Source: Hydractinia symbiolongicarpus
Taxonomy: Eukaryota > Cnidaria > Hydrozoa > Anthoathecata > Hydractiniidae
DNA: 64,000 nt
Reading direction: 5' to 3'
Assembly (NCBI RefSeq): GCF_029227915.1
Contig: NC_079879.1
Span: 19,355,001-19,419,000, forward strand
Position numbers and translations under genes: made by a program. The notes beneath the pieces are model-generated. The model had not been told where the DNA came from and made no database searches. It saw only the letters and a list, made by a program, of their open reading frames with translations. Shown here in pieces: positions 43,685 to 64,000 of this stretch (position 1 is its first letter; each line of letters opens with the position of its first letter).

Positions 43685-43885
43685 TCAAGCTAACCATCTC
43701 TCAAAATAGGATAAAACGGTCTGGCTGTCTAACCTGCCATCAACATTTTCCTTCAAGCACTGTATAATAAGAACCTTGTAGTCATTGTTTTTTACCATAT
43801 CGACTTGCTGTTCACGTAAATCTGGTACTGGTTGTTGCCTTATGCACATTTCACAAAACAGTACACCGAAGCTGTATACATCAAG
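43685..43885 (-). CDS. TKL-type kinase, terminal exon (end of kinase domain)
   Basis: This 66-codon exon plus stop completes the kinase encoded mainly at 48144-49829. It follows a TTCTTTCAG acceptor (43886-43894). It opens with LDVYSFGVLFCEM, the DVxSFG motif of subdomain IX, whose aspartate stabilises the catalytic loop. Next comes a helical C-lobe segment containing DLREQQVDMV and QCLKENVDGR; the final arginine is in the position of the conserved subdomain XI arginine. It ends SYFERWLA and TGA at 43685-43687. The upstream exon ends in the codon AAA at a GTGAGT donor, so the join is phase 0 and places DVYSFG the usual distance after the APE motif. The protein ends soon after the domain with no C-terminal extension. 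Confidence 0.85.
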   Translation of the reverse strand, partial: LDVYSFGVLFCEMCIRQQPVPDLREQQVDMVKNNDYKVLIIQCLKENVDGRLDSQTVLSYFERWLA

Positions 43886-46800: not shown

Positions 46801-48143
46801 TTATTGTAATGGCCACGTACACAAAGTAATTAGAAGAAGTTCAAGATCAAAATAGAATGTTGAACAACATGTAAAAAACATTATTTTCATTATTTTATAT
46901 TGCTGAACTTCCCCCCAAAAAGATAAAGAAAGTAAAGATGCAAGAAATAAAGATGAAGCCACCACATTAAGCATTCGATTTGACATGAATGTTTTCGATC
47001 TGTATATTTATTCAAATTTACCGCCATCTCATCATAACAAACTTTCGTTCGAATTTAATAGTATGTTGAGGAAAAGGGACTTTAAACTAAACAAAATATT
47101 GTTGCTGGTCATGACAGATATCTCTTTACTTCAAAGAGGTTTAAACGAAGCTCTTAAAATGCTTTTAATACAATAAAATATTCTTGGTTATCTCGAGTTA
47201 TAGATTTTATTCTTGATGTTTACCAGTAGGTAAATCCAAAACCCACTTATTTTCACCCCATACAGCCATGAAGATTCTTAAAAACCGTTCCTAGGAAAAT
47301 ACCTGGATACTTAGTTGTGAAGTATAGTTATTTATTTGTTATTATAGTAGTTATCTTAATAGATTTTAGGATTTAGAAATCAATAATTTTTTTAATAATT
47401 ATCACCTTCCACCTGTAACTGCCTTGGATAAGTTTGCAAAGATGGATTACCCAATACGTTTGGGTTGATAACGCCATAAAAAATACTTACATCCCGTTAT
47501 CTCTGTAATCGTTCATCAAAAGGACCTGATTCTATATATTTTCTTGATGATCATTTCACACCTCTACACATTAGAGGCAACGGCTTAACGAAATTTTTCG
47601 CATATCAACAGGCTGATGACGTCATCAAAATTCCTTCTTGCATATCTCAGCGACACCACTTAATGGTATGCATTATTTTAATAAGGGTTGCGAATGTTAC
47701 ATAATAGAAAGAACAGGCTAGAAATTTTTATTTCATTGTAATGACAAATTTAAGGCAAAATAAATTGAAAAAGGATTGGAATGGTCTACGCCATCTCCCT
47801 TATGGGTAACTAGGAGCAACCAGGGCACAAAATTGGGCCAACACATACATTTTCTTTATCAGTATTTCAGGCTCTACAAACTAATTCTTTGCATCTCCAT
47901 TGTTGACGTTATCGTATTTCAAATGACAGATCTTCCTCATTGTTCCTCCGCCTAAGCTGATTTTTCTAGTGGAAATATATAATTGTTGCTTCCTTAATGA
48001 TGTGGATTATTCCACACCCATTCAACTAGAACTGAATATTTTATTAACTTTTTTTATTACTATAAATAGATGTCCTGTAAGTATAAATAAAAGATAAGAA
48101 AATCTGAATTTGCTGCTGTGAAATAAAAATATAAGACACTCAC
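43886..48143 (-). other. Intron of the kinase gene (~4.26 kb)
   Basis: Bounded on the minus strand by the GTGAGT donor at 48138-48143 and the TTTCAG acceptor at 43886. It contains relics of the GTGGATTTTTCCAC repeat (about 45330-45400, weaker at about 45655-45735) and a GTTCTACCGGCTTA hairpin with a near-complementary arm (about 45931-45960). It also has a TTTTGATAACGTCATCAATCAG tandem duplication at about 46300-46430. No extra exon was recognised. Confidence 0.7.
46300..46430. repeat. Two tandem ~63-bp units in the kinase intron
   Basis: TTTTGATAACGTCATCAATC begins both units (about 46300 and 46363), followed by TTTGAAA.TTTAAA and a CAGTCTT end. A related TTTTGATAACGTCAC lies at about 45388. 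Confidence 0.8.
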
Positions 48144-49829
48144 TTTCGTGTTCTGAGTATTAGTACATGCTTCAGGTGCGGAATATAATGAAGCACCAGG
48201 ATAGGGCGTTTTTGAATGGTGAATAAGGTTAGCTGCACCAAAATCTGAGAGTTTTCCTCTCCATCCGTCTTTGCCACGGTACAATAGAACATTAGCACTA
48301 CTAACATCGCGGTGGATAATAGGGGCAGGCTTGGACAGGTGAAGATAATTCAAAGCACGAATTGTATCGAAGGCTATCTGTAAACATTCTTGATCCACCA
48401 AATTTCTTTCCGTTATCAATGCGCGCAAGTCAGTTTCAAGGAGTTCCATTATAAATAATGGACAACCGTTATCGTTTGTTGCGCCGATAAATTGAACAAG
48501 GCATGGATGTCGACACCTGGATGCTATTGTCATTTCACGTTCAAATAGCCCACGACTGTAATCAGATATTATTAAGTTGTGAATTTTCTTAACAGCAACT
48601 TCAGTTCCACGAAACTTTCCAACTTCTACAGTTCCCCAACCACCATCACCTATTTTCTTCTTCATTAGATCTATTTCTTCACGCTTCAGTATCCAATCTA
48701 GTCCTTCATTTTTCTGGACTTCTCGATTTTGGCTTCTTCGTGTTAGAACTTGTGCATGAGATGACCTCAATCGTTCAGCCATTGCTTGATTTTGATTTCT
48801 TGTTTCTGCTAACTGTGCACGAAGGGACGTTAATTCTTCATCCTTTGCTTGAAGTTGCACACGAAGAAAAACCGATTGTTCAACCATTGCTTGATTTTCT
48901 TTCAATTGTGCACGAAGGAACGTTAATTCTTCATCTTTTGCTTCATTTTGATTGCTTGTTTCTACTAACTGTGCACGAAATGACCTCAATGGTTCAACCA
49001 TTGCTTGATTTTGATTTCTTGCTTCTGCTAACTGGTCACGAAGGGACGTTAATTCTTCATCCTTTGTATCATTTTGATTTCTTGTTTCTGCTAACTGTGC
49101 ACGAAGGGACGTTAATTCTTCATCCTTTGCTTGAAGTTGCACACGAAGAAAAACCGATTGTTCAACCATTGCTTGATTTTCTTTCAATTGTGCACGAAGG
49201 AACGTTAATTCTTCATCTTTTGCTTCATTTTGATTGCTTGTTTCTACTAACTGTGCACGAAATGACCTCAATGGTTCAACCATTGCTTGATTTTGATTTC
49301 TTGCTTCTGCTAACTGGTCACGAAGGGACGTTAATTCTTCATCCTTTGTATCATTTTGATTTCTTGTTTCTGCTAACTGTGCACGAAGGAATGTTAATTC
49401 TTCATCCTTTGCTTGATCTTGATCTCTTGTCTCTTCTAGTTGCGCACAAAGAAAAACCGATTGTTCAGCCATTGCTTGATTTTCATTCAATTGTGCACGA
49501 AGGAACGTTAATTCTTCATCTTTTGCTTCATTTTGATTCCTTGTGTGTACTAGTTGTGCGTGAAAGAATCCTACTTGTTCATCTTTTGCTTTATTCTGAT
49601 TTCTAGTTTCTGCTAGTTGTCCACGAAGGGACGTTAATTCTTCATCTTTTGCTTGATCTTGATTTCTTCTTTCCACTACCGGTTTAAACGTTACTTTTTC
49701 AAATTTTCTTTCGAATTTTTGATAGATTGACGGGAGTTCTCCTTGAAATGCAAAATCTCTCATCTGATTACCTAATTTTTTTTCCATTGCCGGTAATTGA
49801 TTTCTTTCCACGTTAAACCCTTCGTTCAC
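48144..49829 (-). CDS. TKL-type protein kinase with coiled-coil repeats, main exon
   Basis: A 562-codon exon, phase 0 at both ends, between acceptor TATTTAAG (before 49829) and donor GTGAGT (from 48143). It opens with GTG, so this is an internal exon or translation begins at the strong-context ATG at residue 15. Residues 1-55 match the exon of the upstream array. Residues about 55-375 are heptad-like coiled-coil repeats of the AKDEELTSLRAQLAETRNQN type. The kinase domain starts near 390: glycine loop GDGGWGTV, VAVKK lysine, FEREM glutamate, HRDVSSANVLL (about 507), DFG (about 530) and SAPEA (about 551), so the catalytic residues are all present. The usual lysine of HRDxK is serine here. Overall it is most like TKL kinases; substrate unknown. 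The coiled coil suggests oligomerisation and the kinase is probably intracellular, since no signal peptide or membrane segment is seen. Confidence 0.88.
48841..49404 (-). repeat. Two tandem 282-bp coding units (94 codons each)
   Basis: The segments 48841-49122 and 49123-49404 are virtually identical at the DNA level, differing mainly near the outer end. The period is an exact multiple of three, so the duplication lengthens the coiled coil by 94 residues without breaking the frame. Shorter, older repeats of the same theme flank it. Confidence 0.92.
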
Positions 49830-50110
49830 CTTAAATAGAAAAATACTTAAATATTAATTCACTACAATCTTCTTAAAAATATATTTAGACAAGGACGTTT
49901 TTAATGACTTTGCTACATTTTTTTTTTAAATTATGAAATGGAAATACAGTATGGGTCAAGTTAAATGAAATAGTTTCTGTAAAAGTGTGTTTACTGTAAT
50001 TATTGGGAAGGTAATGCTATTAATGATGCATTCACATAAAGAATTGAGCAAGTGATGGATCCAGATTTCTTTCAGGAAGGTGACTAGTTTAACTGAAGGA
50101 ATTGCAGGTA
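49830..50110 (-). repeat. Kinase-exon 5' flank homologous to the array unit
   Basis: Intronic sequence just upstream of the kinase exon matches the region upstream of each array exon. Shared words in order include AGACAAGGACGTT, then CAGTATGGGTCAAG, then a TTACTGTAATT/TTACAGTAATT site, GATGCATT/GGTGCATT, and ACTAGTTTAACTGA. The array unit and the kinase exon therefore share ancestry beyond the coding part. Confidence 0.8.
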
Positions 50111-50659: not shown

Positions 50660-51400
50660 TTAAAAGAAGAAAACCTATAAAATTATCACGTGATATGATG
50701 TGTATTTTACAGGCCAGACTGTTAACAGAGAAAGACGGGGGTAAAACTAAAAAGAAACCAGTAATAAATAAGCCATTGGCGAAGTTGCATCAAATTAATA
50801 AAAAAAAAAAAACTGTGATAAAACAGTATATAGTTCAAATTACAAAAAATATCATGTGATAATATGTGTATTTTACAGACCAGACAGTTAAATAGAGAAA
50901 GACGGGGGTAAAACAAAAAAGAAACCAGTTATAAATAAGTCATTGGCGAAGTTGCATTAAATTGCTGTGATAAAACAGTAATTAAAACTACAAAAAATAT
51001 CACGTGATAAGGTGTGTATTTTACAGACCAGACAGTTAAATAGAGAAAGACGGGGGTAAAACTAAAAAGAAACCAGTTTTAAATAAGCCATTGTTGGCGA
51101 AGTTGCATTAAATTAAAAAGAACAGAACCATGGTAAAACAGTAATTAAAACTACAAAAAATATCATGTGATAAATATGTGTAATTTACAGACCAGACTGT
51201 TAAATTTAAAAAAGACGGGGGTAAGAACTAAAAAGGAAACCAGGTATATAAGCCATTTGCGAAGTTTGTATAGGTTAATTAACAGAATTGTGATAAAAAC
51301 AGTAAATTAAACTATAAAAAATTATTGATGTTTTGCAGACCAGGCTGTTAAATACTGTAGAGAGATGGGCAAAAATCCAGAAAGAAACAAATATCAAAAT
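50660..51400. repeat. Degenerate tandem repeat, ~150-170 bp unit, about five copies
   Basis: Each unit has TCACGTGATA or TCATGTGATA, then GTGTATTTTACAG.CCAGAC, then AGAGAAAGACGGGGGTAAAAC and AAGAAACCAG, then GGCGAAGTTGCAT. Starts are near 50697, 50866, 51014, 51178 and 51330; the last is the most decayed. It lies in the presumed intron between the array and the kinase exon. Confidence 0.9.
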
Positions 51401-54400: not shown

Positions 54401-55285
54401 GCTAAACGAACATTTTCATTGTCTGTTTAATGCTGTTTTCATAACAAAAATTAAAAGAGTTTGTCGCACAAAAGTCACGAATAATTACTTTTCATTGTTT
54501 TCTTAAAGCATTACTTTTGTTGTATAAATATGTTTTATTAAAATTATTATTATTATTATTTATTAAAAAATGTTTTTTGGCTATTTCGTTTCAAACGTTT
54601 GAATTGTTCTAGTTTTTTCAACGAAATTAAAAAACAAAAAAATAGATAAGGCGTACAATAAATTTAAAGAAGTTTGTGTAAATAGATATTCTATTTTCTG
54701 TCTTTTTTGTTCTCAAAGAAAGTATTACATAATGTACGATCTGTGAAATTTATTTCATGAATTTTATTTTACATTCCCGAGTCTATAGTGGGGGCATGAA
54801 ACTTTCCACGAATCTTTATCACACAAGAAAAGGAATTTGTGAGGGAGACACGCTCAAATGCCACGTGATTGCCGACTTTCAGCATTTTTCAACTTTCCTA
54901 AACTTGGATATATTATACACTAATTGAAATTAAATTTAGTGGTGATTAACTTAATTTGGTGATTCATAGAAAACACGGAGTAAAAATGACCTGGAAACGA
55001 GTTATATACAATATAACTCATTGACAGGACTCTTTTTGAAAAATATATACCGTATTTACACTACTTAAAAATTGACTCACGGGGTACTCCATTAATTAGA
55101 GAGCGGCGCTAATAAGAGGACGTCGCTAATGAAATAATTTTCACAATGACTAATGGAAGAACTTGTTAAAAAGGAGGAATCATTATAACCTTTTTCCAAT
55201 GTCTAAAATAATATTTTACAACAAATAAAAACTTTCTAAATCTTCATACACTGGTCCTTCTTTATCTGTACCATATTTGACATAA
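54401..55285. other. Intron/intergenic DNA, no gene recognised
   Basis: AT-rich, with an (ATT)n run at about 54543-54560. Confidence 0.4.
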
Positions 55286-55934
55286 CTATGCTGCTGTTGT
55301 GGATGAAGGGGAGGGGGGATTAATGAATTTCCATAGTACATATGCCTTGTGTACCGTTTGTTGAACAATGGGCTGCTGGCCAGGTATTGTAACCATGCGT
55401 ACCAAAAGAGTTATAAATCGGTCATGACCTTGTTGCTGCTCTTTTTTCTTTCTTCTTTTGGTTTCGCTACCACTTGACTCATCAGCTTGCAACTGTCTAT
55501 AGATGTTTTGACTGCAAATACTTTGCCATGTGCCATATTGTTTGTATTCTTGAAATACTTTTATTCCAGAAGCAGCTTCCATGCAGGTTGTTATGTAGAA
55601 TTTAAACGTTAGGCTTGTTTGATTAGTGTCGATGGAAAATTCGATTCCTCTGGACTCACACCTTCCTTTCAGCTTTTCAATTACTGACTTATAATATTCG
55701 GTCTCTTTTTAACGTTTTAAACATTGGTTAATAGCAGCTTTTTGTCATCTTTTTATTTTCAAGAATAATCACTAAGTTGTTAACCATATTTCTTGGCCAA
55801 TGTAATTCCCTTCCAGTTTTATTTCTTTTTTTCTTCGTGCCTTTTTTCATTAAAACTTCAAAACGATTCTCCTCCTCTTTACTCTCATCAGATGACATTG
55901 GATTGTCATGTGTTATTGTTGATAAAAATATCAA
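55286..55934 (-). pseudogene. Degraded SANT/MADF-like DNA-binding protein gene
   Basis: On the minus strand three frame segments join into one protein-like series. First comes an acidic/basic N-terminal part with ELHWPRNMVNNLVIILENKK. After a frame change there is a KKLLLTNV block and a stop. After a second frame change the series reads EYYKSVIEKLKGRCESRGIEFS and continues open through KFYITTCMEAASGIKVFQEY and GTWQSICSQ to a basic stretch and a stop near 55286. The layout resembles Myb/SANT-like (MADF-type) DNA-binding proteins often linked to transposons in cnidarian-type genomes; this is from memory and uncertain. Two frame breaks and a stop make it a pseudogene. It lies inside the presumed intron of the kinase gene and is more likely an inserted relic than an exon. 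Confidence 0.55.
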
Positions 55935-56097
55935 ATTCTATTCAATAAACAAAAAAATATATATAATAATGATTAGGTTTGTAACGCGTTATCACCAATT
56001 ATAAATTTTAACTTACCACTTATGCAGGCAGGTTGGTTTGTTTGCGCCTTTAAAGCTTGCGCTTTATGTGTTTAAAACAAACTTGCGGGGGGCGTTC
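55935..56097. other. Left boundary of the tandem array
   Basis: Unique sequence ending in GGGGGGCGTTCAAA, after which the repeated unit starts at ATCACGTCGAG. Units further right have AAAAATGATAATA in this position. Confidence 0.6.
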
Positions 56098-56431
56098 AAA
56101 ATCACGTCGAGTATTGTATTACTGCCCATTCGTATTTCTGCCCCGAAAAACAAAATCCGATTTTATTTAGTTTCCCTTGACAAAAAGTAGACGTCTAATG
56201 CCGTGCCTCACTATTGGCGATTGTATCAGCACATTCTCCTGTAACTTTTGAATAACGTCGACATTAATTAATTATGTCAATGTAGACGTCATCTTTTTGT
56301 CAAACATATTAGACTAAATTAAGTTTAAAACGGCAAAAATAATGCATCTAATCTAGGCTTTAGACAACCTAAATTGAAGTAAGTATTAGTGCCTATAATG
56401 AAGATTTGAAAATAAGCCAAAATTGTCTAAC

Positions 56432-56677
56432 CTGAGAATGTTCTTGTTTCACACGTACAAGGTCAGCTTTAGTGTCAGTTACTTCTACTTGGTCTTGTTG
56501 ATTTTGGATTGTATTTTCTAATAACTGCACAAAAGAATTTTTTTCATCGCTTTTTAAGAACATTTGGAATTGTCTTTGAAATGGAGCATTTTCCGCCCTT
56601 TCTAATTGCATCTGATTGTCTCCTTGATTTTCCATCGCTGATAGTTGACTTTTTTCCGCATTATTCCCTTCGTTCAC
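56432..56677 (-). CDS. Array exon copy 1 (82-codon module, kinase-proximal)
   Basis: A 246-bp exon between acceptor CTATTTAAG (before 56677) and donor CAG/GTTAGA (56427-56431), phase 0 at both ends, so any number of copies keeps the frame into the kinase exon. It starts VNEGNNAEKSQLSAMENQ and ends VKQEHSQ. It is rich in Q, N and E, predicted helical and without cysteine. Its first 23 residues align with the first 23 of the kinase exon (VNEGFNVERNQLPAMEKK), and its LENTIQNQQDQ region with the start of the coiled coil. The ATG at residue 15 has a strong start context, so each copy could alternatively be a first exon. The role is probably a coiled-coil or oligomerisation module; that is inference. 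Distinguishing residue: K77, where other copies have E. Confidence 0.75.
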
Positions 56678-57174
56678 CTTAAATAGAAGATTACTATTAC
56701 TACTATCACTAAATTAGTATTAATTGACTTCAATTTTTTAAGATCATATTGAGACAAGGACGTTCTTATTGATAGTGCTAAAAAACTTAAATTTTTAAAT
56801 GGCAATGCAGTATGGGTCAAGGTATGTGGAGTATTTTCAGAACAAGTCATTTACAGTAATTGGATAAGTAATGTTCCTAATGGTGCATTTACAGGAAAAG
56901 TTAAAAAAGAGGTGGATTGTTTCTTGAGGGTAGGTAGTATTTGTTAGCTAAGAAATGAGGGTCCCATAAAAAAGGAACTAGTTTAACTGAGGGGAAATGT
57001 CCTAATTACTAAGCTTTACTTGAATTACGAGAAAGTGAAGACACAGGAGTTGATTTTTCCTAACTATTCTTTTCTCTTCTCCTCTTGAGAGCAAAACTGT
57101 GTAAATCATTCGTTCATGATTTGTAATAATTACATTAATTACAAAATTACAAAATTACAAAATTAAAAAAATAA

Positions 57175-58242
57175 CAAGAAGCCCTGGGGGCTCTAAGAAT
57201 TTCCGCGCGCTACCAAAATAATTGATGAAAACCTGCTAATTCGTTGTGTTATTGTGCCAAACATTCGAAGGGGTTTGGTGCATGAACCTCTGAAGATAAA
57301 GCACACCAGTGACATTATATCTTACAACAAACGCAAACAAAACGAAACGTGTCATTAAACTCACATTTTAAAAGAAATTGCTAACAAAAAATACAGCCTA
57401 TCATTCATGGTTGAAAGTCTTGTGACTGAAACGTTTATGGTCTTAATTATTTTTTAGGCATTAGTTGACAAAAAATTAAAATTTTGATGTGACCATCATT
57501 TTCAGCATACTTTTTTATTAACTGTGTCAATTTTTGTCGAAAATAAAGCAGTTTTAATTTTTGGATAAATTTTGGCCTGAAATAACATTTAGGTGACAAA
57601 AATCAAAATTTTGATGTCACCATTATGTTCAGCATACTTTTTTTGTTAACTTTGCCAATTTTTGTTGAAAATGAAGTAGTTTTAATTTTTGGACCAATTT
57701 TGGCCTAAAATGGCATTTAGGTGACAAAAATCAAAATTTTGATGTCACCATTATGTTCAACATACTTTTTTTGTTAACTTTGCCAATTTTTGTTGAAAAT
57801 GAAGTGGTTTTAATTTTTGGACCAATTTTGGCCTAAAATGACAGTTAAGGTGGCAAAAAACCAAAATTTTGATGTCATCATCATGTTCAGCATACTTTAT
57901 TTGTTAACTGTGCCAAATTTTGTTCAAAATAAAGTAGTTCTAATTTTTCGACTAATTTTGGCCTAAAATGACATTTAGGTGACAAACCTCAAAATTATTA
58001 TGTCACCATTATGCTCAGCATACTTTTTTTGTTAACTGTGCCAAATTTTGTCGAAAACAAATACCAATTTTGGCCTGAAACGTCAATACGAGACTTCCCA
58101 GTAGTTAAGGAGCTTGGGTACGAAATTTACATCTGTGACGGAGCAACGTGAAATCCCAGGGTCGATTTTTTCTCAAAAAATGCTCCGAAAGAAAAAAACG
58201 ACGGTTTTAAAGAATTTCCTACGCCTTCGGGCGCGGAAATTC
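57175..58242. mobile_element. 1068-bp insertion between array units 1 and 2
   Basis: It interrupts the A/T-rich unit border and is absent from the other borders. A 12-bp inverted pair GAATTTCCGCGC is present at 57198-57209 and 58231-58242; the right copy is at the exact end, while about 23 extra bases precede the left copy. No clear target duplication and no transposase. It is probably a MITE-like or foldback element carrying internal tandem repeats. Confidence 0.6.
57455..58085. repeat. Five tandem ~128-bp units inside the insertion
   Basis: Each unit has AAAATTTTGATGT(C)ACCAT, then TTCAGCATACTTTTTT, then GTTAACT.TGCCAA, then GTAGTTTTAATTTTTGGA and CAATTTTGGCCTAAAATG. Copies are at a spacing of about 126-131 bp; the second and third are nearly identical and the outer ones diverged. 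Confidence 0.9.
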
Positions 58243-58592
58243 AAAAATAAAAATGATAATAATCACGTCGAGTATTGTATTACTGCCCATTCGTATTTCT
58301 GCCCCGAAAAACAAAATCCGATTTTATTTAGTTTCCCTTGACAAAAAGTAGACGTCTAATGCCGTGCCTCACTATTGGCGATTGTATCAGCACATTCTCC
58401 TGTAACTTTTGAATAACGTCGACATTAATTAATTATGTCAATGTAGACGTCATCTTTTTGTCAAACATATTAGACTAAATTAAGTTTAAAACGGCAAAAA
58501 TAATGCATCTAATCTAGGCTTTAGACAACCTAAATTGAAGTAAGTATTAGTGCCTATAATGAAGATTTGAAAATAAGCCAAAATTGTCTAAC

Positions 58593-58838
58593 CTGAGAAT
58601 GTTCTTGTTCCACACGTACAAGGTCACCTTTAGTGTCAGTTACTTCTACTTGGTCTTGTTGATTTTGGATTGTATTTTCTAATAACTGCACAAAAGAATT
58701 TTTTTCATCGCTTTTTAAGAACATTTGGAATTGTCTTTGAAATGGAGCATTTTCCGCCCTTTCTAATTGCATCTGATTGTCTCCTTGATTTTCCATCGCT
58801 GATAGTTGACTTTTTTCCGCATTATTCCCTTCGTTCAC
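58593..58838 (-). CDS. Array exon copy 2
   Basis: Same 82-codon open exon with both splice sites intact. It differs from the consensus by G71 in place of A (TKGDLV) and has E77. Confidence 0.75.
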
Positions 58839-59675
58839 CTTAAATAGAAGATTACTATTACTACTATCACTAAATTAGTATTAATTGACTTCAATTTTTT
58901 AAGATCATATTGAGACAAGGACGTTCTTATTGATAGTGCTAAAAAACTTAAATTTTTAAATGGCAATGCAGTATGGGTCAAGGTATGTGGAGTATTTTCA
59001 GAACAAGTCATTTACAGTAATTGGATAAGTAATGTTCCTAATGGTGCATTTACAGGAAAAGTTAAAAAAGAGGTGGATTGTTTCTTGAGGGTAGGTAGTA
59101 TTTGTTAGCTAAGAAATGAGGGTCCCATAAAAAAGGAACTAGTTTAACTGAGGGGAAATGTCCTAATTACTAAGCTTTACTTGAATTACGAGAAAGTGAA
59201 GACACAGGAGTTGATTTTTCCTAACTATTCTTTTCTCTTCTCCTCTTGAGAGCAAAACTGTGTAAATCATTCGTTCATGATTTGTAATAATTACATTAAT
59301 TACAAAATTACAAAATTAAAAAAATAAAAATAAAAATGATAATAATCACGTCGAGTATTGTATTACTGCCCATTCGTATTTCTGCCCCGAAAAACAAAAT
59401 CCGATTTTATTTAGTTTCCCTTGACAAAAAGTAGACGTCTAATGCCGTGCCTCACTATTGGCGATTGTATCAGCACATTCTCCTGTAACTTTTGAATAAC
59501 GTCGACATTAATTAATTATGTCAATGTAGACGTCATCTTTTTGTCAAACATATTAGACTAAATTAAGTTTAAAACGGCAAAAATAATGCATCTAATCTAG
59601 GCCTTAGACAACCTAAATTGAAGTAAGTATTAGTGCCTATAATGAAGATTTGAAAATAAGCCAAAATTGTCTAAC

Positions 59676-59921
59676 CTGAGAATGTTCTTGTTCCACACGT
59701 ACAAGGTCAGCTTTAGTGTCAGTTACTTCTACTTGGTCTTGTTGATTTTGGATTGTATTTTCTAATAACTGCACAAAAGAATTTTTTTCATCGCTTTTTA
59801 AGAACATTTGGAATTGTCTTTGAAATGGAGCATTTTCCGCCCTTTCTAATTGCATCTGATTGCCTCCTTGATTTTCCATCGCTGATAGTTGACTTTTTTC
59901 CGCATTATTCCCTTCGTTCAC
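59676..59921 (-). CDS. Array exon copy 3
   Basis: Open, with intact acceptor and donor. Its single distinguishing residue is G20 in place of D (QGGNQM). Confidence 0.75.
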
Positions 59922-60766
59922 CTTAAATAGAAGATTACTATTACTACTATCACTAAATTAGTATTAATTGACTTCAATTTTTTAAGATCATATTGAGACA
60001 AGGACGTTCTTATTGATAGTGCTAAAAAACTTAAATTTTTAAATGGCAATGCAGTATGGGTCAAGGTATGTGGAGTATTTTCAGAACAAGTCATTTACAG
60101 TAATTGGATAAGTAATGTTCCTAATGGTGCATTTACAGGAAAAGTTAAAAAAGAGGTGGATTGTTTCTTGAGGGTAGGTAGTATTTGTTAGCTAAGAAAT
60201 GAGGGTCCCATAAAAAAGGAACTAGTTTAACTGAGGGGAAATGTCCTAATTACTAAGCTTTACTTGAATTACGAGAAAGTGAAGACACAGGAGTTGATTT
60301 TTCCTAACTATTCTTTTCTCTTCTCCTCTTGAGAGCAAAACTGTGTAAATCATTCGTTCATGATTTGTAATAATTACATTAATTACAAAATTACAAAATT
60401 ACAAAATTAAAAAAATAAAAATAAAAATGATAATAATCACGTCCAGTATTGTATTACTGCCCATTCGTATTTCTGCCCCGAAAAACAAAATCCGATTTTA
60501 TTTAGTTTCCCTTGACAAAAAGTAGACGTCTAATGCCGTGCCTCACTATTGGCGATTGTATCAGCACATTCTCCTGTAACTTTTGAATAACGTCGACATT
60601 AATTAATTATGTCAATGTAGACGTCATCTTTTTGTCAAACATATTAGACTAAATTAAGTTTAAAACGGCAAAAATAATGCATCTAATCTAGGCTTTAGAC
60701 AACCTAAATTGAAGTAAGTATTAGTGCCTATAATGAAGATTTGAAAATAAGTCAAAATTGTCTAAC

Positions 60767-61012
60767 CTGAGAATGTTCTTGTTCCACACGTACAAGGTCA
60801 GCTTTAGTGTCAGTTACTTCTACTTGGTCTTGTTGATTTTGGATTGTATTTTCTAATAACTGCACAAAAGAATTTTTTTCATCGCTTTTTAAGAACATTT
60901 GGAATTGTCTTTGAAATGGAGCATTTTCCGCCCTTTCTAATTGCATCTGATTGTCTCCTTGATTTTCCATCGCTGATAGTTGACTTTTTTCCGCATTATT
61001 CCCTTCGTTCAC
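60767..61012 (-). CDS. Array exon copy 4
   Basis: Consensus protein sequence with intact splice sites. Its unit carries an intronic base change just past the donor (GTCAAAAT instead of GCCAAAAT on the plus strand), shared with copy 5. Confidence 0.75.
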
Positions 61013-61857
61013 CTTAAATAGAAGATTACTATTACTACTATCACTAAATTAGTATTAATTGACTTCAATTTTTTAAGATCATATTGAGACAAGGACGTTC
61101 TTATTGATAGTGCTAAAAAACTTAAATTTTTAAATGGCAATGCAGTATGGGTCAAGGTATGTGGAGTATTTTCAGAACAAGTCATTTACAGTAATTGGAT
61201 AAGTAATGTTCCTAATGGTGCATTTACAGGAAAAGTTAAAAAAGAGGTGGATTGTTTCTTGAGGGTAGGTAGTATTTGTTAGCTAAGAAATGAGGGTCCC
61301 ATAAAAAAGGAACTAGTTTAACTGAGGGGAAATGTCCTAATTACTAAGCTTTACTTGAATTACGAGAAAGTGAAGACACAGGAGTTGATTTTTCCTAACT
61401 ATTCTTTTCTCTTCTCCTCTTGAGAGCAAAACTGTGTAAATCATTCGTTCATGATTTGTAATAATTACATTAATTACAAAATTACAAAATTACAAAATAA
61501 AAAAAATAAAAATAAAAATGATAATAATCACGTCCAGTATTGTATTACTGCCCATTCGTATTTCTGCCCCGAAAAACAAAATCCGATTTTATTTAGTTTC
61601 CCTTGACAAAAAGTAGACGTCTAATGCCGTGCCTCACTATTGGCGATTGTATCAGCACATTCTCCTGTAACTTTTGAATAACGTCGACATTAATTAATTA
61701 TGTCAATGTAGACGTCATCTTTTTGTCAAACATATTAGACTAAATTAAGTTTAAAACGGCAAAAATAATGCATCTAATCTAGGCTTTAGACAACCTAAAT
61801 TGAAGTAAGTATTAGTGCCTATAATGAAGATTTGAAAATAAGTCAAAATTGTCTAAC

Positions 61858-62103
61858 CTGAGAATGTTCTTGTTCCACACGTACAAGGTCAGCTTTAGTG
61901 TCAGTTACTTCTACTTGGTCTTGTTGATTTTGGATTGTATTTTCTAATAACTGCACAAAAGAATTTTTTTCATCGCTTTTTAAGAACATTTGGAATTGTC
62001 TTTGAAATGGAGCATTTTCCGCCCTTTCTAATTGCATCTGATTGTCTCCTTGATTTTCCATCGCTGATAGTTGACTTTTTTCCGCATTATTCCCTTCGTT
62101 CAC
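61858..62103 (-). CDS. Array exon copy 5
   Basis: Identical in protein to copy 4, including the shared intronic variant. The pair probably arose in one duplication of a 1091-bp unit. Confidence 0.75.
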
Positions 62104-62940
62104 CTTAAATAGAAGATTACTATTACTACTATCACTAAATTAGTATTAATTGACTTCAATTTTTTAAGATCATATTGAGACAAGGACGTTCTTATTGATA
62201 GTGCTAAAAAACTTAAATTTTTAAATGGCAATGCAGTATGGGTCAAGGTATGTGGAGTATTTTCAGAACAAGTCATTTACAGTAATTGGATAAGTAATGT
62301 TCCTAATGGCGCATTTACAGGAAAAGTTAAAAAAGAGGTGGATTGTTTCTTGAGGGTAGGTAGTATTTGTTAGCTAAGAAATGAGGGTCCCATAAAAAAG
62401 GAACTAGTTTAACTGAGGGGAAATGTCCTAATTACTAAGCTTTACTTGAATTACGAGAAAGTGAAGACACAGGAGTTGATTTTTCCTAACTATTCTTTTC
62501 TCTTCTCCTCTTGAGAGCAAAACTGTGTAAATCATTCGTTCATGATTTGTAATAATTACATTAATTACAAAATTACAAAATTAAAAAAATAAAAATAAAA
62601 ATGATAATAATCACGTCGAGTATTGTATTACTGCCCATTCGTATTTCTGCCCCGAAAAACAAAATCCGATTTTATTTAGTTTCCCTTGACAAAAAGTAGA
62701 CGTCTAATGCCGTGCCTCACTATTGGCGATTGTATCAGCACATTCTCCTGTAACTTTTGAATAACGTCGACATTAATTAATTATGTCAATGTAGACGTCA
62801 TCTTTTTGTCAAACATATTAGACTAAATTAAGTTTAAAACGGCAAAAATAATGCATCTAATCTAGGCTTTAGACAACCTAAATTGAAGTAAGTATTAGTG
62901 CCTATAATGAAGATTTGAAAATAAGCCAAAATTGTCTAAC

Positions 62941-63186
62941 CTGAGAATGTTCTTGTTCCACACGTACAAGGTCAGCTTTAGTGTCAGTTACTTCTACTTG
63001 GTCTTGTTGATTTTGGATTGTATTTTCTAATAACTGCACAAAAGAATTTTTTTCATCGCTTTTTAAGAACATTTGGAATTGTCTTTGAAATGGAGCATTT
63101 GCCGCCCTTTCTAATTGCATCTGATTGTCTCCTTGATTTTCCATCGCTGATAGTTGACTTTTTTCCGCATTATTCCCTTCGTTCAC
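62941..63186 (-). CDS. Array exon copy 6
   Basis: Open, with intact splice sites. Distinguishing residue A29 in place of E (ERAANAP). It is the last complete exon before the window edge. Confidence 0.75.
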
Positions 63187-64000
63187 CTTAAATAGAAGAT
63201 TACTATTACTACTATCACTAAATTAGTATTAATTGACTTCAATTTTTTAAGATCATATTGAGACAAGGACGTTCTTATTGATAGTGCTAAAAAACTTAAA
63301 TTTTTAAATGGCAATGCAGTATGGGTCAAGGTATGTGGAGTATTTTCAGAACAAGTCATTTACAGTAATTGGATAAGTAATGTTCCTAATGGTGCATTTA
63401 CAGGAAAAGTTAAAAAAGAGGTGGATTGTTTCTTGAGGGTAGGTAGTATTTGTTAGCTAAGAAATGAGGGTCCCATAAAAAAGGAACTAGTTTAACTGAG
63501 GGGAAATGTCCTAATTACTAAGCTTTACTTGAATTACGAGAAAGTGAAGACACAGGAGTTGATTTTTCCTAACTATTCTTTTCTCTTCTCCTCTTGAGAG
63601 CAAAACTGTGTAAATCATTCGTTCATGATTTGTAATAATTACATTAATTACAAAATTACAAAATTAAAAAAATAAAAATAAAAATGATAATAATCACGTC
63701 GAGTATTGTATTACTGCCCATTCGTATTTCTGCCCCGAAAAACAAAATCCGATTTTATTTAGTTTCCCTTGACAAAAAGTAGACGTCTAATGCCGTGCCT
63801 CACTATTGGCGATTGTATCAGCACATTCTCCTGTAACTTTTGAATAACGTCGACATTAATTAATTATGTCAATGTAGACGTCATCTTTTTGTCAAACATA
63901 TTAGACTAAATTAAGTTTAAAACGGCAAAAATAATGCATCTAATCTAGGCTTTAGACAACCTAAATTGAAGTAAGTATAAGTGCCTATAATGAAGATTTG

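Follow-up and report, generated by a model that had tools for sequence, protein, structure and literature searches.

A homogeneous tandem array of a frame-neutral exon upstream of a coiled-coil kinase exon in Hydractinia symbiolongicarpus

Introduction

The KIV-2 repeat of LPA is described as 5.6-kb units, each with two exons (160 + 182 = 342 bp), in up to 40 repeats (PMC11201333). In NEB, the triplicate region is described as eight exons repeated three times in the gene of a giant muscle protein (PMC9109913). UGT1 and the protocadherin genes (PCDH), as outlined in PMC1885805 and PMC3325998, carry tandem exons upstream of a common downstream exon, with one of them serving as the first coding exon. 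Here we describe a locus of the hydrozoan Hydractinia symbiolongicarpus that recalls each of these systems. It lies in a 64,000-nucleotide stretch of contig NC_079879.1 (positions 19,355,001 to 19,419,000; hereafter the window, whose coordinates are used throughout) and consists of a tandem array of a 246-bp exon upstream of the large kinase exon of the gene LOC130645160. We report the anatomy of the array, the homogeneity of its units, its paralogy with the kinase exon and the use of its copy 1 in the public gene model.

An earlier note on this DNA, made from the sequence alone, knew of no named system of this kind. However, LPA KIV-2 and the NEB triplicate region share its build. The array resembles LPA KIV-2 in its large tandem unit of intron plus exon, its frame-neutral exon content and its many copies; both have kilobase-scale units, and the position of copies 2 to 18 within a transcribed gene is putative here. 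The two differ in that LPA copy number is described as measured on the protein (PMC11201333), whereas the Hydractinia unit is 1.09 kb with one exon, present once in a protein model. As in the account of NEB, exon-bearing blocks prone to copy-number change are repeated within a gene (PMC9109913). Like the exons of UGT1 and the protocadherins, those of the array stand before a shared downstream exon, and in the public model copy 1 of the 18 is joined to it singly as the first coding exon. In contrast to the variable first exons of UGT1, each described as having its own promoter (PMC1885805, PMC3325998), the array copies are almost identical and their products would not differ in the UGT1 or PCDH manner (14 of 18 match the consensus and four are one base off).

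Tandem repeats of at least seven copies make up 15.7% of the H. symbiolongicarpus assembly described in PMC11067881, which may differ from the assembly analyzed here. With that share of the genome in tandem repeats, it is unsurprising that an array has caught an exon. The arrays presented in that article have evenly spaced, near-identical units like those reported here; they carry genes for non-coding RNA or are unclassified, whereas the present array carries a protein-coding exon (PMC11067881). It would be a very young coding-exon satellite within a genome where tandem arrays abound, and a test case for how a genome handles a sudden supply of frame-neutral exons: by skipping them, using one or stringing them together. 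If they were strung together, the locus would parallel the LPA KIV-2 polymorphism in a kinase gene. Published work also includes gene editing in Hydractinia (PMC6122657). We favor, at a probability of about 0.58, a young exon-bearing array derived from a coiled-coil kinase gene, in which copy 1 serves as an alternative first coding exon and the other copies are most likely passive.

Results

Structure and homogeneity of the array

When the window was joined to the neighboring DNA that we fetched, the array was found to extend past the window edge, from 56100 to about 76725, and to comprise 18 units. The earlier note had reported six complete, open, 246-bp phase-0 exons with AG acceptors and GT donors, head-to-tail on the kinase strand, and had placed the other end of the array beyond 64000. 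These six exons were confirmed and lie near one end of the array; the window holds their six complete units and the beginning of a seventh. The array lies 5' of the kinase exon. Unit length was 1,083–1,091 bp in 17 of the 18 units and 1,071 bp in unit 1; note that the unit boundaries were chosen by us and that the outer ends of units 1 and 18 were placed by hand. The spacing of about 1.09 kb noted earlier does not hold between copies 1 and 2, which are 2,161 bp apart because about 1.09 kb of other DNA separates them. The copy number of 18 is that of one assembly and may be inexact.

The array exon comprises 82 codons on the minus strand and was open, and in phase 0 at both ends, in all 18 copies. 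The splice sites were the same in every copy (acceptor ...TATTTAAG/GTG, donor CAG/GTTAGA). Exon DNA equaled the consensus in 14 copies, and the other four (copies 1, 2, 3 and 6; Table 1) each differed by one base and one residue, which agrees with the earlier claim of at most one residue per copy.

Across the 18 units only 13 columns were substituted (14 when one within an 8-bp length variant is counted); the other differences were that length variant and a single 1-bp deletion. Identity over five markers was 0.80 at a lag of six units, and 5 of the 12 unit pairs at that lag agreed in all of them (permutation p = 0.0047 across lags 2–8 and 0.0005 for lag 6 alone). This six-unit periodicity points to past multi-unit exchange, the pattern expected of satellite-like growth, and the array has both the homogenized head-to-tail units and the multi-unit periodicity of a satellite-like tandem array.

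There was no support for purifying selection between the 18 copies. The exon, which is 22.7% of the unit, holds 4 of the 13 substituted columns and is not depleted of change (binomial p for at least four columns = 0.34, or 0.40 with 14 columns). All four exon substitutions change an amino acid and none is silent, where the expected share of changing substitutions is 72.5%; the probability that four random changes make no stop is 0.80. Given how few the differences are, copies would be expected to stay intact even without selection. Thus, the earlier observation that no copy is broken extends to all 18 copies but carries no weight as a sign of selection; intactness indicates that the array is young or homogenized.

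Use of copy 1 in isoform X2 of LOC130645160

The kinase exon of the window was 100% identical to isoform X2 of LOC130645160 over the part they share (74% of the searched kinase region). Isoform X2 has 648 amino acids, consisting of 68 residues from the ATG of copy 1, 562 residues of the kinase exon and an 18-residue end encoded at 47965–47912. At 49829 the array exon joins the kinase exon in HSQ/VNEGF, an exact phase-0 junction, as the earlier note had proposed. The array copy in X2 was recognized as copy 1 by the lysine of E77K, which is found in 1 of the 18 copies, and X2 contains no second copy. Public models with several isoforms are usually backed by RNA-seq. The sequence cluster of X2 has two member sequences on one contig, the second of which may be isoform X1.

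Paralogy with the kinase exon

Paralogy with the kinase gene covers the array exon, its acceptor and its upstream intron, which correspond to the head of the kinase exon and to the intron in front of that exon. Unit positions 510–818 were 70% identical to 49761–50060, and 20 bases across the acceptor were identical between the two exons. The first 24 codons aligned with the kinase-exon head without gaps at 75% identity, with nonsynonymous (dN) and synonymous (dS) divergence of 0.25 and 0.66, and with 6, 7 and 5 differences at the three codon positions. Further, a methionine stands at the matching place in both, in QLSAMEN of the array exon and QLPAMEK of the kinase-exon head. When the unit was used for a DNA search, at least 15 places were found; among those outside the array, the head of the kinase gene alone overlapped the exon part, and the other matches covered only unit positions 7–263 or 660–853. 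Among the 120 listed relatives (of 3,076 protein matches) of the kinase, the array exon was present in one, LOC130645160 itself.

Coding status of the array exon

AG..GT stretches that are in phase 0 and open over 246 nt or more occurred in 54 of 1,000 units after dinucleotide shuffling. They also occurred in 8 of 40 pieces of 1,091 bp cut consecutively from window 1–43000, some of which may contain real exons; exon geometry alone is therefore not rare. A codon model was built from 3,809 codons, taken from the longest open frames at 8 kinase loci. By this model the log-odds in frame were 0.119 per codon for the array exon, compared with 0.150 in the kinase exon and no more than 0.06 in the background. 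This codon usage exceeded that of all 28 background open stretches of window 1–43000, and the other five frames of the exon had negative log-odds. Codon usage and presence in a public protein model raise the array exon above chance, and it looks truly coding. Its structure, predicted alone from the single sequence, was mostly helical with low confidence (mean predicted local distance difference test score, pLDDT, 65.5). An Rfam scan of 55000–64000 gave no structured RNA at the gathering score.

Search for products with several copies

The earlier note had suggested that a variable number of array exons is joined to the kinase. We searched for such proteins with words drawn from the array exon. 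With a query of 648 amino acids, the exon was found in 1 of 58 candidates of about 356–1134 amino acids, and with a query of 1155 amino acids in 1 of 857 candidates of about 635–2021 amino acids; in both cases the protein was X2. Proteins carrying the array exon more than once were thus not found at about 356–2021 amino acids; note that a product with 18 copies and the X2 end would have 2042 amino acids, just above this range. Among the listed titles and abstract openings of papers on the Hydractinia genome, tandem repeats and exons, none described the array, and a search for papers on LOC130645160 found none. Serial inclusion is possible but found no support, and single use of copy 1 is the simplest reading.

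Shortly beyond the array, on the side away from the kinase, at 77996–78491 on the minus strand, there is an exon-like open reading frame (ORF) that begins MEEDTKERH and contains imperfect repeats of about 30 residues. The earlier note had suggested a search for the true first exon beyond 64000, and this candidate was rejected; its GTAAGT donor is in phase 1, as against the phase-0 array exons, and splicing to an array exon would shift the frame and reach a stop after five codons. No match to this ORF was found in the 120 listed kinase relatives or in proteins of about 635–2021 amino acids.

Weighing the explanations

The amplified segment would comprise part of an intron, with repeat fragments, and a short coding exon from a TKL-type coiled-coil kinase gene. 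It would have been amplified recently, head-to-tail, to 18 copies through unequal exchange, which is the presumed cause as in ordinary tandem arrays. The copy nearest the kinase would then act as an alternative first coding exon, with translation from its internal ATG and a phase-0 splice to the kinase exon, and the other 17 copies would most likely be passive or occasional stand-ins for copy 1. Since each copy is frame-neutral, a change in copy number would do no harm to the reading frame. The position of the transcription start and the variation in copy number between animals are presumptive here.

Several points weigh against this reading. The single-copy picture was drawn from isoform X2 only, not X1, and short reads that fit many copies equally well may be dropped when gene models are built, which could hide array-to-array junctions, in which case a single-copy model may understate inclusion. 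Since every copy has the same splice sites, nothing evident would make a transcript that starts upstream of the array leave copies out. Further, the dN and dS values over the 24 codons hint weakly at constraint in the past; third positions show no excess of differences. An alternative would be a coding variable number of tandem repeats (VNTR), in which several or all array exons stand in series before the kinase exon. The N-terminal helical region would then grow with copy number at 82 residues per copy, just as apolipoprotein(a) varies in its number of kringles. This fits 18 open, phase-0 exons on the kinase strand whose splice sites are the same, and a helical prediction of low confidence ahead of a coiled-coil region that is itself repetitive. 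However, the only public model in which the exon turned up contains it once and begins translation within it, neither protein search (about 356–2021 amino acids) yielded another protein with the exon, and the upstream ORF offers a phase-1 donor that leads to a stop five codons into the array exon. We consider the VNTR unlikely. Still less probable is its extension, in which transcription begins upstream of the array and the number of 82-residue helical blocks ahead of the coiled-coil kinase varies; array copy number would then differ from colony to colony and determine how large the kinase is or how it oligomerizes.

The start of X2 at the ATG of copy 1, and the methionine at the matching position of the kinase-exon head, would also suit tandem alternative first exons, many units having their own promoter and each being joined to the kinase exon, so that dosage would rise and the protein would not lengthen. 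This is doubtful, since copy 1 alone appears in the public model, the promoters are purely hypothetical and near-identical copies give no diversification of the UGT1 or protocadherin kind. At the other extreme, the exon could have no function, a satellite having caught a dead relic and the public model being a prediction error. Open AG..GT stretches of similar size in 8 of 40 background pieces and the absence of a purifying signal between copies are in line with such a relic, whereas codon usage above all 28 background stretches, the 20 identical bases across the acceptor and the exact phase-0 junction in the public model argue against it; we regard it as the least probable of these explanations. 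The use of copy 1 as an alternative first coding exon remains the favored reading.

Features of the kinase gene and the surrounding DNA

The coordinates of the features are collected in Table 1.

Table 1. Coordinates and characteristics of features in the window
Feature	Position	Strand	Characteristics
Kinase C-lobe exon	43685..43885	-	LDVYSFGVLFCEM...WLA stop; phase-0 compatible with kinase exon
Alternative last coding exon of X2	47912..47965	-	KNQLRRRNNEEDLSFEIR; truncates kinase domain
Kinase exon of LOC130645160	48144..49829	-	Head paralogous to array exon (VNEGFN...AMEK), 21-residue coiled-coil repeats, kinase domain
Intron upstream of kinase exon	49830..50060	-	Paralogous to intron before each array exon, splice acceptor included
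Dispersed repeat at kinase-side array edge	55168..56358	.	Matches L020, partly L019; last 259 bp are positions 1–259 of copy 1
Array part in window	56100..64000	- (exon sense strand)	Copies 1–6 whole, copy 7 cut at edge
Array exon copy 1	56432..56677	-	E77K; used in LOC130645160 isoform X2, coding from ATG at 56635
DNA between copies 1 and 2	57171..58260	.	128-bp tandem repeats inside, 12-bp inverted repeats near ends
Array exon copy 2	58593..58838	-	A71G
Array exon copy 3	59676..59921	-	D20G
Array exon copy 4	60767..61012	-	Consensus
Array exon copy 5	61858..62103	-	Consensus
Array exon copy 6	62941..63186	-	E29A

In the translation of the kinase exon, Pfam PF00069 and PF07714 matched within residues 389–562, and the kinase domain in this exon extends to what we take to be the APE motif. 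The best relatives of solved structure were TNNI3K and CTR1, with IRAK4 lower; RAF and CSK were also among the 60 shown of 640. We take TNNI3K, CTR1, IRAK4 and RAF to be TKL kinases and CSK to be a tyrosine kinase, and the kinase domain was nearest to TKL members. The named species among the 120 listed protein matches were cnidarians. Judged by its sequence, the X2 product may be a kinase-dead coiled-coil protein, the C-lobe being removed by the short alternative end.

The kinase exon also contains a 282-bp (94-codon) coiled-coil block at 48722–49285 that is duplicated head-to-tail with 90% identity and has a 63-bp (21-codon) sub-repeat, possibly a second coding repeat in LOC130645160. Antisense to the coiled-coil repeats there is an open frame of 337 codons (48593–49606, plus strand), which is probably a by-product of repeat codon usage.

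The dispersed repeat that borders the array on the kinase side matched L020, on another contig, with 78% identity over 313 aligned positions and 74% over 921, and its inner part matched L019 with 75% identity over 788. Its tail recurs as positions 1–259 of every unit, while its body lies at the edge; copy 1 therefore still adjoins the body and later units have the tail only. A second dispersed repeat, at unit positions 660–853, overlaps the stretch common to the unit and the intron of the kinase gene. The DNA between copies 1 and 2, which had no match among the loci compared, is perhaps a transposon-like insertion. Tandem repeats with periods of 148–315 bp occupy 50699–51388 in the intron between the array and the kinase exon. 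Beyond the window, long open frames at 86563–87630 (minus strand) and 89710–91641 resemble what we take to be transposon genes (integrase-like and PIF/Harbinger-like).

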